Below, in pieces: positions 1 through 55,798 of a stretch of DNA of 64,000 bases; within the stretch, counting starts at the first letter, position 1, and every line of letters starts with the position of its first letter. Below the pieces are notes generated by a model, which searched no databases, was not told the DNA's origin, and worked only from the letters and a program-made list of their open reading frames with translations. The DNA lies in the NCBI GenBank assembly GCA_944388935.1, contig CALXKK010000001.1, positions 126,344 to 190,343 of the forward strand, read 5' to 3'. The stretch is from an uncultured Clostridia bacterium. Its GTDB lineage: Bacteria > Bacillota > Clostridia > TANB77 > CAG-508. The position numbers and the translations under genes were made by a program.

Positions 1-538
1 TTGTTATTCCAGAACCTACCACATCTAATAATTTATTACTTTTTAAATTTCTTATTTCATAATACCCGTCTTTGTCCATCTTTATCCTAAACTTTTGTTG
101 ACTTACTTGTATATAATCCCATATATTAACATTTGCACCATTTTCTGTTTTGCCAGCATCTATTCCTACTGCTCTATTACCTGGCAATACACTTCTAATT
201 GTATATATACCTTCCTCTAATTTTATGTCTCCAGCTTCAATACTATTTTTTAATAACTCATCATTTTGCGTAATATCCGTTTTTTCTGAATTAGATTGTT
301 CTATTTCATTCTTTTTATTATTATTTTCCAAATTTATTTCTTCATTTGTATTCTCTTCTGTTTCATCAACTATGTTTTCGTTTTCCTCTATAACTATATT
401 TTCTTCTATAAAATTATTCTCTTCTGACTTGTTATTATCTACATTTTCATCTTCGTTTTTCGTTATCACATTAGCATAACTAATCTGTGCCAAAAATAAT
501 CCTAATAATATTAAAAGTAAGCATATTATTTTTTTCAT
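1..538 (-). CDS. Secreted ricin-type lectin protein, N-terminal part only
   Basis: This gene enters from the left edge, so only the first 179 codons are visible. It starts with a signal peptide of about 22 residues (MKKIICLLLILLGLFLAQ, ending near SYA). A stretch rich in Asn, Glu and Asp follows to about residue 80. Then comes the start of a ricin B beta-trefoil, with RAVGIDAGKTENGANVNIWD, a QQKF motif and LLDVVGSG. The layout and wording match the N-termini of the three complete lectin-hydrolases nearby, so a catalytic C-terminal domain probably lies outside the window. AGGAG sits 8 bases before the ATG. The enzyme activity cannot be named from what is visible. The protein is expected to be exported and to act at the cell wall. 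Confidence 0.88.
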   Translation of the reverse strand, partial: MKKIICLLLILLGLFLAQISYANVITKNEDENVDNNKSEENNFIEENIVIEENENIVDETEENTNEEINLENNNKKNEIEQSNSEKTDITQNDELLKNSIEAGDIKLEEGIYTIRSVLPGNRAVGIDAGKTENGANVNIWDYIQVSQQKFRIKMDKDGYYEIRNLKSNKLLDVVGSGIT

Positions 539-53502: not shown

Positions 53503-53555
53503 AAAAAATAAGGACATGAATTTTTTTAATCCACGCCCTAATTTCCTTATTTTTT
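53503..53555 (-). terminator. Long-loop terminator after hisS
   Basis: AAAAAATAAGGA (53503-53514) pairs with TCCTTATTTTTT (53544-53555) around a 29-base loop, with a run of T after the stem on the minus strand. The hisS stop codon lies within the stem. Confidence 0.65.
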
Positions 53556-54866
53556 AATATTGTTTGCAATTTCTTCTGCATCCATATTAATTTCCTTTTC
53601 TTCTCCTGATTTCATATCTTTTAGTTTTATCTTTTTATCTTTTATTTCATCATCACCAATAACTATTACATAAGGTATTTCCAATTTGTCAGCATATTTA
53701 AATTTTGCTTTTAATTTTTTATTGTTTAAATATACTTCTGTATTTATTCCTGTTTTTCTTAATTCTGTAGCTAATTTTATTGGTTCTTTTAAATCTTCTG
53801 CTATAGGAATAATTAAAATATCTGAAATAGATTTTTTCTCTGCTTTTATTATGTTTAATTCATTAAGCTTATAGAAAAGCCTTGTAAGTCCAATTGAAAT
53901 TCCAACTCCTGGTAAGCTCTTGTCTGTATAATATTCTGCTAAATTTTCGTATCTTCCTCCAGAGCATACGCTACCAAGTTCTCTATAATTATTTAAAAAT
54001 GTCTCGTAAACTGTTCCAGTATAATAATCTAATCCTCTTGCAATTGTTAAATCTACTTGGAAGTTTTCTTCAGGTACTCCAAATAATCTAACATTATTTA
54101 TAACAGATTTTAATTCTTCTACACCTTTTTTATATGTTTCGTTATCTATTCCTAAATTTTCTAATTTTTCTAGTTTTTCGTCAGAAGTTCCTTCTATTTC
54201 TATAAAATTCATAATAGATTTTATTTGCTCTTCTTTAACATCTAATTTTCTTAATTCTTCTATTACTGCATCTTTTCCTATTTTCTCAATTTTATCTATT
54301 ATTCTTAATATCTCTGTAGAATTTTCTTTTTGATTTACTCCTTCGAATAAACCGTTTAGTATTTTTCTGTTATTTATTTTTATTGTAAAATCGTTAAATC
54401 CTAACTCTTTAAATAATGAATAAATAATACTAGGCATTTCTGCATCATTTATTAAGTCTAATTCTCCATCACCAATAACATCTATGTCACATTGGTAGAA
54501 CTCTCTATATCTTCCTTTTTGAGCACGTTCTCCTCTATATACTTTTCCAATTTGATATCTTCTAAATGGAAAACTTAAATTTCCATAATTTTTAGCTACA
54601 TATTTTGCAAGTGGCACAGTTAGGTCAAATCTTAACGCTAAATCGCTATCTCCCTTTTGGAATCTATATATTTGTTTTTCTGTTTCTCCACCAGCTTTTG
54701 CAAGTAAAACTTCTGCTGATTCAATTATTGGCGTATCTAAAGGTAAAAATCCAAATTTTTCATAAGTCTTTTGTATTGTTTCTTTCATTTGATTAAATAA
54801 TATTTGTTCATTTGGTAATAATTCCATAAAACCTGATAATGTTCTTGGTTCTACTTTTGTTTTCAT
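53547..54866 (-). CDS. hisS: Histidyl-tRNA synthetase
   Basis: This 439-residue class II synthetase has LSGFMELLPNEQILFNQM at the start, motif 2 FRRYQIGKVYRGERAQKGRY, the histidine-specific loops LTIARGLDYYTGTVYE and SVCSGGRYENL, and motif 3 GVGISIGLTRLF. A C-terminal anticodon-binding domain covers about 345-439. It charges tRNA-His. Instead of the T-box that controls many synthetase genes in Firmicutes, the 280-base leader carries a short histidine-rich ORF and a terminator, described separately. GGAGAGG precedes the ATG by 7 bases. It lies downstream of the metallohydrolase/rel/recJ genes but has its own promoter. Confidence 0.97.
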   Translation of the reverse strand: MKTKVEPRTLSGFMELLPNEQILFNQMKETIQKTYEKFGFLPLDTPIIESAEVLLAKAGGETEKQIYRFQKGDSDLALRFDLTVPLAKYVAKNYGNLSFPFRRYQIGKVYRGERAQKGRYREFYQCDIDVIGDGELDLINDAEMPSIIYSLFKELGFNDFTIKINNRKILNGLFEGVNQKENSTEILRIIDKIEKIGKDAVIEELRKLDVKEEQIKSIMNFIEIEGTSDEKLEKLENLGIDNETYKKGVEELKSVINNVRLFGVPEENFQVDLTIARGLDYYTGTVYETFLNNYRELGSVCSGGRYENLAEYYTDKSLPGVGISIGLTRLFYKLNELNIIKAEKKSISDILIIPIAEDLKEPIKLATELRKTGINTEVYLNNKKLKAKFKYADKLEIPYVIVIGDDEIKDKKIKLKDMKSGEEKEINMDAEEIANNIKK

Positions 54867-54894
54867 AATTATCCTCTCCTTTTATTTAATTTTT

Positions 54895-54930
54895 CAAGAA
54901 AAAAATGTAGGTAATTTAGTACCTACATTG
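54895..54930 (-). terminator. Attenuator terminator in the hisS leader
   Basis: AATGTAGGTA (54920-54929 on the minus strand) and TACCTACATT (54904-54913) form a 10-bp perfect stem with a 6-base loop, followed by six T. It sits 29 bases before hisS, so it would stop transcription ahead of the gene unless an alternative fold prevents it. Confidence 0.85.
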
Positions 54931-54956
54931 TTCGTTCTTTATATTTATATTAACAA

Positions 54957-55021
54957 CAATACAGGTACACATGCTTTTAACACCTATACCTGCATAATTT
55001 TTTATTATGAGATATAAGTGT
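54957..55021 (-). promoter_or_regulatory. Alternative antiterminator pairings in the hisS leader
   Basis: Read on the minus strand, segment A (ACACTTATA, 55013-55021) can pair with TATAGGTGT (54980-54988). Segment 1 (ATGCAGGTA, 54987-54995) can pair with TACCTGTAT in segment 2 (54957-54967). Segment 2 (TACCTGTATTG) can instead pair over 11 bases with CAATGTAGGTA (54920-54930), the 5' arm of the terminator. These pairings exclude one another in the order expected of an attenuator. Confidence 0.65.
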
Positions 55022-55073
55022 GAATAAAATGATGATGTAATTGTATTGTTTTATTATCTTTTAAATTATACAT
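55005..55073 (-). CDS. Histidine leader peptide of hisS, 22 residues
   Basis: A 22-codon ORF begins at ATG 55073 and ends at TAA 55005-55007. AAAGGGTG lies 6 bases upstream. Codons 12-18 encode LHHHFIH, so four of six consecutive residues are His, far above chance in this AT-rich sequence. It lies between a consensus promoter and a terminator hairpin just ahead of hisS. By analogy with the his and trp leaders, ribosome stalling at these codons when charged tRNA-His is scarce would switch the downstream RNA fold. The peptide itself probably has no other role. The ORF and its position are seen directly; the mechanism is inferred. Confidence 0.75.
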   Translation of the reverse strand: MYNLKDNKTIQLHHHFIHTYIS

Positions 55074-55104
55074 TTTTTTCACCCTTTAATTATTTTATAC
55101 AAAT

Positions 55105-55133
55105 ACTATATTATATTTTCCTAAAAATGTCAA
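55105..55133 (-). promoter_or_regulatory. Consensus promoter of the hisS leader transcript
   Basis: TTGACA (55128-55133), a 17-base spacer and TATAGT (55105-55110) are read on the minus strand. It starts RNA about 25 bases before the leader-peptide ATG and lies after the metallohydrolase gene's stop. Confidence 0.85.
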
Positions 55134-55150: not shown

Positions 55151-55798
55151 TTAATCTTTCTTTGGTTTTGCTTCTAGATATATTGGCTTTTCATCACCAA
55201 TTCTAGTTGGATCTCCATGTCCTGGATACACTATTGTATCCTCCGGTAATATCAAAAGTTTATTAATAATAGAATTCATAATATCTTGAAAACTACTAGT
55301 TGGTAAATCTACTCTTCCCCATGCACCTTTAAATAATGTATCTCCAGAAAACAACATTTCCTCTTCTTCGCAATACAAAGAAGTTCCATCATTTGTATGT
55401 CCCGGTGTAAAAATAACTCTTAATTCTATTTTTCCAACATGTAATTTATCTTCGTCATCAACAATGCTGTCTTCTTTTACAGTTATTGGAGGAAGTCCTA
55501 TATATTCATCTAAAACGGTAATTCTATTTGCTAAATTTTCTCTTCCGTTTCTATGAATTAGAACTTTACCTCCTTTAGCTTTCTTTAATTCGTTTACACC
55601 ATTTATATGGTCTGCATGGCAATGTGTTAAATATATATATTCTAATTCTGCATCTAAATTAATTAAAATTTCTACTATTTCTTCTACTTTTCCAGCGGGG
55701 TCTATTACCATTGCTTTTTTCTGAATTTCATCTATTATTATGTAGCAATTTGTTTCTCCCACAAATTCTATAGGTACCTTTATTCTTTTTAGTATCAT
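55151..55798 (-). CDS. Metallo-beta-lactamase-fold hydrolase (glyoxalase II-like)
   Basis: This 215-residue protein has the zinc motif THCHADHINGV (residues about 58-68), a second site GHTNDGTSLY, FSGDTLFKGAWGR with the bridging Asp, and VYPGHGDPTRIG with the last His. It resembles the glyoxalase II/YcbL group that hydrolyses thioesters such as S-lactoylglutathione, although the true substrate in Clostridia is usually unknown. It starts 11 bases after rel on the same strand and is probably cotranscribed with it. Its stop lies close to the hisS promoter, so transcripts from this operon may run into the hisS leader. Confidence 0.93.
   Translation of the reverse strand: MILKRIKVPIEFVGETNCYIIIDEIQKKAMVIDPAGKVEEIVEILINLDAELEYIYLTHCHADHINGVNELKKAKGGKVLIHRNGRENLANRITVLDEYIGLPPITVKEDSIVDDEDKLHVGKIELRVIFTPGHTNDGTSLYCEEEEMLFSGDTLFKGAWGRVDLPTSSFQDIMNSIINKLLILPEDTIVYPGHGDPTRIGDEKPIYLEAKPKKD

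Follow-up and report, generated by a model that had tools for sequence, protein, structure and literature searches.

The Firmicutes are regarded as T-box bacteria, and Bacillus subtilis has an RNA polymerase that is reported to outrun the ribosomes, transcription proceeding ahead of translation; together, these two points lead to the expectation that attenuators read by a ribosome should be rare in this phylum. Naville and Gautheret predicted His leader peptides before hisS* and hisZ in Bacillus (PMC2965389; 2010), and His attenuators have since been predicted before the his operons of the B. cereus group, of C. difficile and its relatives (Peptostreptococcaceae/Lutispora) and of the Erysipelotrichales (PMC9413887; 2022). 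The kind of element described here was therefore already known, and the opinion of the first-pass annotation of this DNA, that a peptide attenuator is unusual in Firmicutes, was too strong (PMC2965389, PMC9413887). The published elements share with ours a short ORF with a His run, an antiterminator and a terminator, and their location before a hisS paralogue or his genes; a regulon of uncultured Clostridia, racemase, dipeptidase and transporter targets, tandem copies and codon-swapped members are not described in the parts consulted of these two sources (PMC2965389, PMC9413887).

The enterobacterial his attenuator (RF00514) resembles the present element by its chain of alternative hairpins and by the formation of an antiterminator upon stalling at His codons. 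The segments that we call A, B/1, 2, 3 and 4 correspond to its segments B, C, D, E and F. The two differ in that no similarity of sequence or to the Rfam model was detected, and our leaders usually contain only three or four His codons, with the switch arm lying just downstream of them. The T-box (RF00230), present in the same genomes, likewise senses whether one particular tRNA is charged, acts on genes for synthetases, biosynthesis and transporters, and changes its specificity on a single scaffold, but it reads the tRNA via a specifier loop, whereas the element studied here reads codons via the translating ribosome.

The window, by which we mean the whole stretch of 64,000 nucleotides analysed, carries hisS on its minus strand, and inspection of that strand revealed all the elements earlier described upstream of the gene: promoter, RBS, leader ORF, pairing segments and terminator (Table 1). 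The consensus promoter, the 22-codon ORF with its LHHHFIH motif and the strong terminator before hisS were indeed recovered as the first-pass annotation had claimed, as were the two alternative partners of segment 2, namely segment 1 and the 5' arm of the terminator; the pairing of segment A with a site overlapping segment 1 is also observed and is longer than first seen, comprising 18 pairs with one bulge in the fold of the window leader. The 2:3 helix consists of 14 consecutive pairs (duplex energy -18.1 kcal/mol). The leader as a whole folds at -48 kcal/mol versus -25.7 ± 3.3 kcal/mol in 200 dinucleotide shuffles (z -6.8), none of which folds as well. Two exclusive sets of pairings emerge, A:B with 2:3 (antiterminator) or 1:2 with 3:4 (terminator), and in the absence of a ribosome segment 0 can pair with the 3' part of segment 2, weakly so in the window member (MFE fold). 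Three criteria for an attenuator are met by the locus itself: a short ORF, inferred to be translated, has an RBS and a run of the regulatory codon (HHH), the terminator, which ends about 32 nt upstream of the hisS ATG (54866), lies between the leader ORF and the structural gene, and the regulatory codon, His, agrees with the amino acid of the downstream gene.

Table 1. Elements of the hisS leader locus in the window, followed by codon-swapped members of the same scaffold found elsewhere with covariance model R3
Feature	Position or locus	Strand	Basis or remark
MBL-fold hydrolase gene	55798..55151	-	upstream neighbour of the leader
Sigma-70-type promoter: TTGACA (55133-55128), 17-nt spacer, TATAGT (55110-55105)	55105..55133	-	11/12 consensus matches
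RBS of the leader ORF, AAAGGGTG	55080..55087	-	sequence
Leader peptide ORF, MYNLKDNKTIQLHHHFIHTYIS then stop, 22 codons, with LHHHFIH	55005..55073	-	sequence; 98 distinct relatives have a His-run leader in the corresponding position; translation inferred
Sensor codons CAT CAT CAT (HHH)	55029..55037	-	kept relative to the RNA scaffold even with a search model without His codons
Segment 0, ACAATAC region before the His codons	55041..55050	-	MFE fold
Segment A, overlaps the last leader codons and the stop codon, pairs with B	55004..55021	-	fold, self-versus-cross pairing, covariation
Segment B, contains segment 1, pairs with A	54980..54998	-	fold, self-versus-cross pairing, covariation
Segment 1 (GCAGGTATA), pairs with segment 2 once A is covered	54985..54993	-	covariation, masked-ribosome folding
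Segment 2 (TGTACCTGTATTGTT), partner 1 or 3	54955..54969	-	self-versus-cross pairing, covariation, masked folding
Segment 3 (AACAATGTAGGTAC), antiterminator arm with segment 2 and 5' arm of the terminator	54919..54932	-	duplex energy, self-versus-cross pairing
Intrinsic terminator (3:4), 10-pair stem, 6-nt loop, U-run	54899..54929	-	fold, -10.9 kcal/mol
hisS, histidyl-tRNA synthetase, regulated gene	53547..54866	-	sequence
NCCC-type leaders before cysS	L275, L281, L283, L285, L286, L289		R3, order
NCCPIS and NCCCCMK leaders before cysE-cysK	L280, L282		R3, order
NCCRC leader before cysK	L290		R3, order
LKLVGLLLI or LKLVGLLLR leaders before ilvB	L268, L269, L270, L272		R3, order
RRRRH leader before N-acetyltransferase-acetylglutamate kinase fusion (argA-argB)	L277		R3, order
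NKHKK leader before lysS	L284		R3, order
LNNGYNI leader before aspS, three congeneric genomes from a different family of the class	L222 (G740), L226 (G583), L228 (G622)		R3, class

The model we propose is that of a ribosome-mediated (leader-peptide) transcription attenuator adjusting hisS to the supply of charged tRNA-His, a reading that we hold with high confidence, the evidence being entirely computational. The RNA polymerase would start at the internal promoter and a ribosome would translate the leader of 22 codons. With little charged tRNA-His available, this ribosome would stall at the HHH codons with its footprint ending just before segment A, thereby allowing A:B to form; segment 1 would then be locked, 2:3 would form and hisS would be transcribed. 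When tRNA-His is charged, the ribosome would reach the stop codon and cover A, 1:2 would form together with the 3:4 terminator, and transcription would stop. The element belongs to a wider family of RNAs built on one scaffold, whose sensor codons are matched to the downstream gene. The elements of the leader, with their conservation, covariation and spacing, and the agreement of codon and gene are demonstrated here; the stall itself, the efficiency of termination and the response to histidine are inferences. Should the RNA polymerase outrun the ribosomes in these bacteria too, the mechanism would be disfavoured.

The geometry of the leaders agrees with this model. In all 46 representatives retained (less than 86% alike), those of the Bacilli included, segment A is observed to start 12-17 nt downstream of the first His codon, counted from its first nucleotide (median 15), and the stop codons lie at or near segment A. 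We cut the transcripts after segment 3 and folded them with a mask over the ribosome footprint, for which we assumed -17 to +12 relative to the ribosomal A site. With the ribosome stalled at the first His codon, 2:3 prevails over 1:2 in 46/46 leaders; with the ribosome at the stop codon, 1:2 prevails over 2:3 in 41/46. For the window leader, the expected numbers of pairs are 16.9 (A:B), 0.0 (1:2) and 13.8 (2:3) in the stalled state, and 0.0, 9.7 and 3.9, respectively, in the stop state. Without any ribosome, 2:3 is still favoured in the window leader, which makes its basal off state less clear than that of other members.

The family on which these comparisons rest comprises 98 distinct homologous His leaders, mostly from uncultured gut Clostridia. 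A blastn search with the leader DNA in 385 genomes yielded two clear homologues, the rest being mostly AT-rich noise, among which three weak matches (L037, L053 and L054) turned out to be real. A covariance model constructed from six leaders with their His codons (R1) matched 46/385 genomes of the order, and a His-containing leader ORF was present in each of the 26 new matches inspected, a result partly due to construction because the model contains those codons. A second model built without the His codons (R3), which does not presuppose histidine, matched 81/385 genomes of the order, and nearly all its strong matches there carry HHH leaders. The E-values of these models are only rough; six matches in the class (L227, L230-L234) and one in the order (L288) were rejected as chance. 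A pattern scan of 84,980 species genomes returned 96 stretches, most of them from uncultured Clostridia of the gut. Among these is Candidatus Merdicola faecigallinarum, the contig of which matches a genome from the same genus as the window; outside Clostridia the scan reached Paenibacillus, Ectobacillus, Fictibacillus gelatini and Bacillus sp. 165. The phylum-wide scan with R3 gave only the genome of the window and three chance-like matches. The scaffold is thus rare outside Clostridia in the phylum sample, although the pattern scan shows some Bacilli. The leaders of Ectobacillus, Fictibacillus and Bacillus sp. 165 share the scaffold, and at least the published His attenuators of Bacillus may therefore be built on it as well; no direct comparison of alignments was made. 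A promoter of the form TTGACN-15..19-TANNNT lies upstream of 78/97 related leaders, versus 1.7 in shuffles, and a terminator is recognisable in 94 of the 98. Homologues, promoters and terminators thus recur, and the window leader is not a product of chance. In the two clear blastn homologues (L032, 1501-1850; L033, 1501-1830), two His attenuators stand in tandem before hisG, recalling tandem T-boxes.

The four helices were examined in the 46 representatives by comparing the duplex energies of each leader's own arms with those obtained with the arms of other leaders. All four prefer their own partner, with z values of -11.7 for A:B, -9.4 for 1:2 (unoptimised regions), -6.8 for 2:3 and -18.3 for 3:4, the last being an overestimate, since the terminator's own fold had served to locate it; the non-predicted pairing 1:4, taken as negative control, gave -1.0. 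Covariation was then observed in a MAFFT alignment of 23 His and codon-swapped leaders. For A:B, 88.9% of the cells are paired, changes on both sides occur at 7/9 pairs (31 cells), and the covariation score is 0.488 versus 0.250 in shuffled alignments, 0/500 of which scored as high; for 1:2, 93.2% of the cells are paired and changes on both sides occur at 6/11 pairs (26 cells; 0/500 shuffles). For both helices, the paired cells, the doubly changed cells and the covariation score exceed those of all 500 shuffles and of all slid versions. B and segment 1 share columns, several of which covary with two partners each, a requirement for helices that exclude one another. The spacer being too variable to align, the self-versus-cross energies were used for 2:3 and 3:4 in place of column-wise covariation. 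A further criterion for an attenuator, that mutually exclusive antiterminator and protector hairpins be kept by covariation, is thus met.

The first-pass annotation had suggested folding the RNA with constrained ribosome positions and searching relatives for a His-rich ORF and covarying arms, and had held that a lack of conservation would refute its idea of a stall at HHH leaving A free. The folding reproduced the switch, with 2:3 on stalling and 1:2 at the stop codon, and the relatives possess both the ORF and the arms; that logic is supported by the self-preference of all helices, the covariation of A:B and 1:2, the fixed spacing between A and the His codons and the agreement of the masked folding. 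The same data bear on the possibility that the leader works through another step, the stalled ribosome altering mRNA stability, Rho access or reinitiation at hisS and not intrinsic termination. Translated leaders can have such effects, and the sequence does not exclude them; we nevertheless consider this improbable, since 94 of the 98 leaders carry a strong intrinsic terminator whose 5' arm is the partner in the antiterminator, and 2:3 and 3:4 are both self-preferring.

The genes located behind the His leaders are observed to fit the sensor codons, 93 of the 98 leaders preceding assigned, His-related genes. Aminoacylation accounts for 22 HisS-like proteins or HisRS-racemase fusions and 7 canonical hisS, and biosynthesis for 8 hisZ, 8 hisD, 5 hisG, 2 hisIE and 1 hisC. 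The remainder consists of 16 GNAT proteins (mostly followed by an M20 peptidase among those inspected), 10 histidine racemase-like proteins, 2 aminoacyl-His dipeptidases, 9 amino-acid ABC binding proteins, 2 amino-acid permeases, 1 phosphoribosyltransferase-like protein and 5 genes without assignment. The aminoacyl-His dipeptidase was named by NCBIfam above its cut-off; the racemases have CntK and the Fusobacterium histidine racemase as best matches, but remain below the equivalog cut-off. Behind one HHH leader (L029, 685-2757, minus strand), a 691-aa protein fuses a histidyl-tRNA synthetase (residues 1-415) to a CntK-like histidine racemase (433-687). For the CntK-like racemases, GNAT proteins and M20 peptidases, roles in histidine supply are predicted, perhaps in the use of D-histidine or of His peptides.

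Eight other HisS-like ORFs (L139, L150, L151, L161, L179, L186, L190 and L195) are near the fusion in length. CntK-like histidine racemases are found behind His leaders at L111 (576-1391, minus strand) and L267 (302-1054, minus strand), and GNAT-M20 peptidase pairs at L053, L105, L110 and L121. In three genomes of the window's genus (L274, L278 and L279 in G006, G008 and G011), the leader MRNILNNKGLNHHHR precedes the binding protein of an amino-acid ABC transporter, which is likely to be part of a histidine importer in these close relatives.

In the order, the shorter R3 matches contain runs of other codons (Cys, Leu, Arg and Lys), each in keeping with the downstream gene, and in the wider class R3 found Asn codons before aspS (Table 1). 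Of these cases, lysS is the least convincing, AAA being a frequent codon in the genomes concerned. The Asn codons before aspS suggest an AspRS controlled by charged tRNA-Asn, which would make sense if that enzyme also charges tRNA-Asn. Masked folding of the codon-swapped members gave the same switch, with the single exception of L275 in the stop state, and several versions can occur in one genome: G058 has His, Leu and Cys versions, and G100 a His-type match with Cys and Arg versions. We find it probable that copies of one scaffold (A, B/1, 2, 3, 4) have arisen within genomes and been given new specificities through the swap of their sensor codons, the His, Cys, Leu, Arg, Lys and Asn versions controlling synthetase, biosynthesis, transport and scavenging genes as a ribosome-read analogue of the T-box.

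No description of a single scaffold reused with swapped codons was found in the open-access literature searched. Like our Cys members, the uORFC-8-2 motif has a leader ORF with Cys codons in tandem, followed by a terminator, in front of cysS (PMC8632094), but it is described only from Rhodobacterales, whereas our Cys members occur in Clostridia and share the His scaffold; the models were not compared. In the Firmicute Staphylococcus aureus, a leader peptide, the Leu-rich attenuator peptide before branched-chain amino acid genes, is described as controlling the synthesis of these amino acids (PMC5794164), as proposed for our Leu members; the latter differ in sharing the His scaffold, the RNAs themselves not having been compared.

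At the locus of the window, the leader has a narrower history. In the nine nearest relatives that possess the same MBL neighbour gene and a readable junction, with a HisS 83-94% identical, the leader is absent and hisS directly follows the MBL gene; the leader of the window is thus either a lineage-specific gain or was repeatedly lost in the relatives, and conservation belongs to the family and not to this locus. This absence, and the fact that a terminator alone is a common feature, would suit a terminator that merely ends the MBL-fold hydrolase gene, with a promoter driving hisS constitutively and an incidental short His ORF. We judge this account still less probable than an action through another step: the promoter lies upstream of the terminator, so that its hisS transcripts must pass it, the His runs and the A:B, 1:2 and 2:3 helices are conserved and covary in 98 leaders before many genes, and the codon swaps agree with the downstream gene.

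The T-box model gave eight matches elsewhere in the genome of the window, preceding serS, argG, glyS, tyrS and valS among others (L306-L310; genes named by sequence). RF00230 has no match at the site and HisS is absent from all T-box loci examined, so T-box control of hisS was rejected; with other genes under T-boxes in this genome, hisS acquired a different kind of control. More generally, a T-box or another tRNA- or metabolite-binding riboswitch with an irrelevant ORF is the least credible reading, even though this genome and related ones commonly have T-boxes, here also before other aminoacyl-tRNA synthetase genes, since Rfam searches of the window and 11 related loci, at gathering thresholds and at E up to 10, gave only chance matches and no known family (RF00514 His_leader included, by covariance model), and the conserved core is made of exclusive helices right after the codons, not of an aptamer, with a codon identity that tracks the gene.

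Taken by itself as an attenuator, the hisS leader of the window is of less interest than the family that it reveals. A whole histidine regulon in uncultured gut Clostridia appears to use a ribosome-read attenuator, while T-boxes serve other amino acids within one and the same genome. The scaffold, which codon swaps appear to have directed to further amino acids, resembles a T-box in being programmable. It offers a direct test of the coupling of transcription and translation in Clostridia, provides synthetic biology with a natural sensor that can be programmed, and gives functional clues to unknown genes such as the CntK-like racemases, GNAT proteins and M20 peptidases found behind HHH leaders.

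Several minor observations may be added. The gene hisG was looked for in the genome of the window and is absent, and it was found in only 3/57 relatives searched; histidine synthesis is thus probably impossible in the former, and T-boxes and peptide attenuation coexist in one small genome devoid of hisG. Further copies of the scaffold in that genome were rejected, the remaining matches (E at least 0.39) being noise-like and without matching leader and terminator. Upstream of another hisS (L022, genome G034), a different His leader, MNFQFVNNNKIVVVKAHHHVGYLSC, is followed by its own terminator (AAGCATGTTTAGGTGATATAAACATGCTTTTTT); the scaffold model has no match at this gene, and the leader may therefore be an independent invention. 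Upstream of the hisS of genome G007 (L017), no His leader was seen in a G-rich, repeat-containing stretch (AGTAACAGTCGGGGGGACCAGCAAGTTAC...), which is possibly another regulatory RNA. Finally, a Clostridia-type His leader precedes hisZ in a record named 'Calditrichales bacterium MX18-03' (L135, JAJGRE010000002.1); this name is probably a misclassification, and the record appears to match genome G539 of the window's class.
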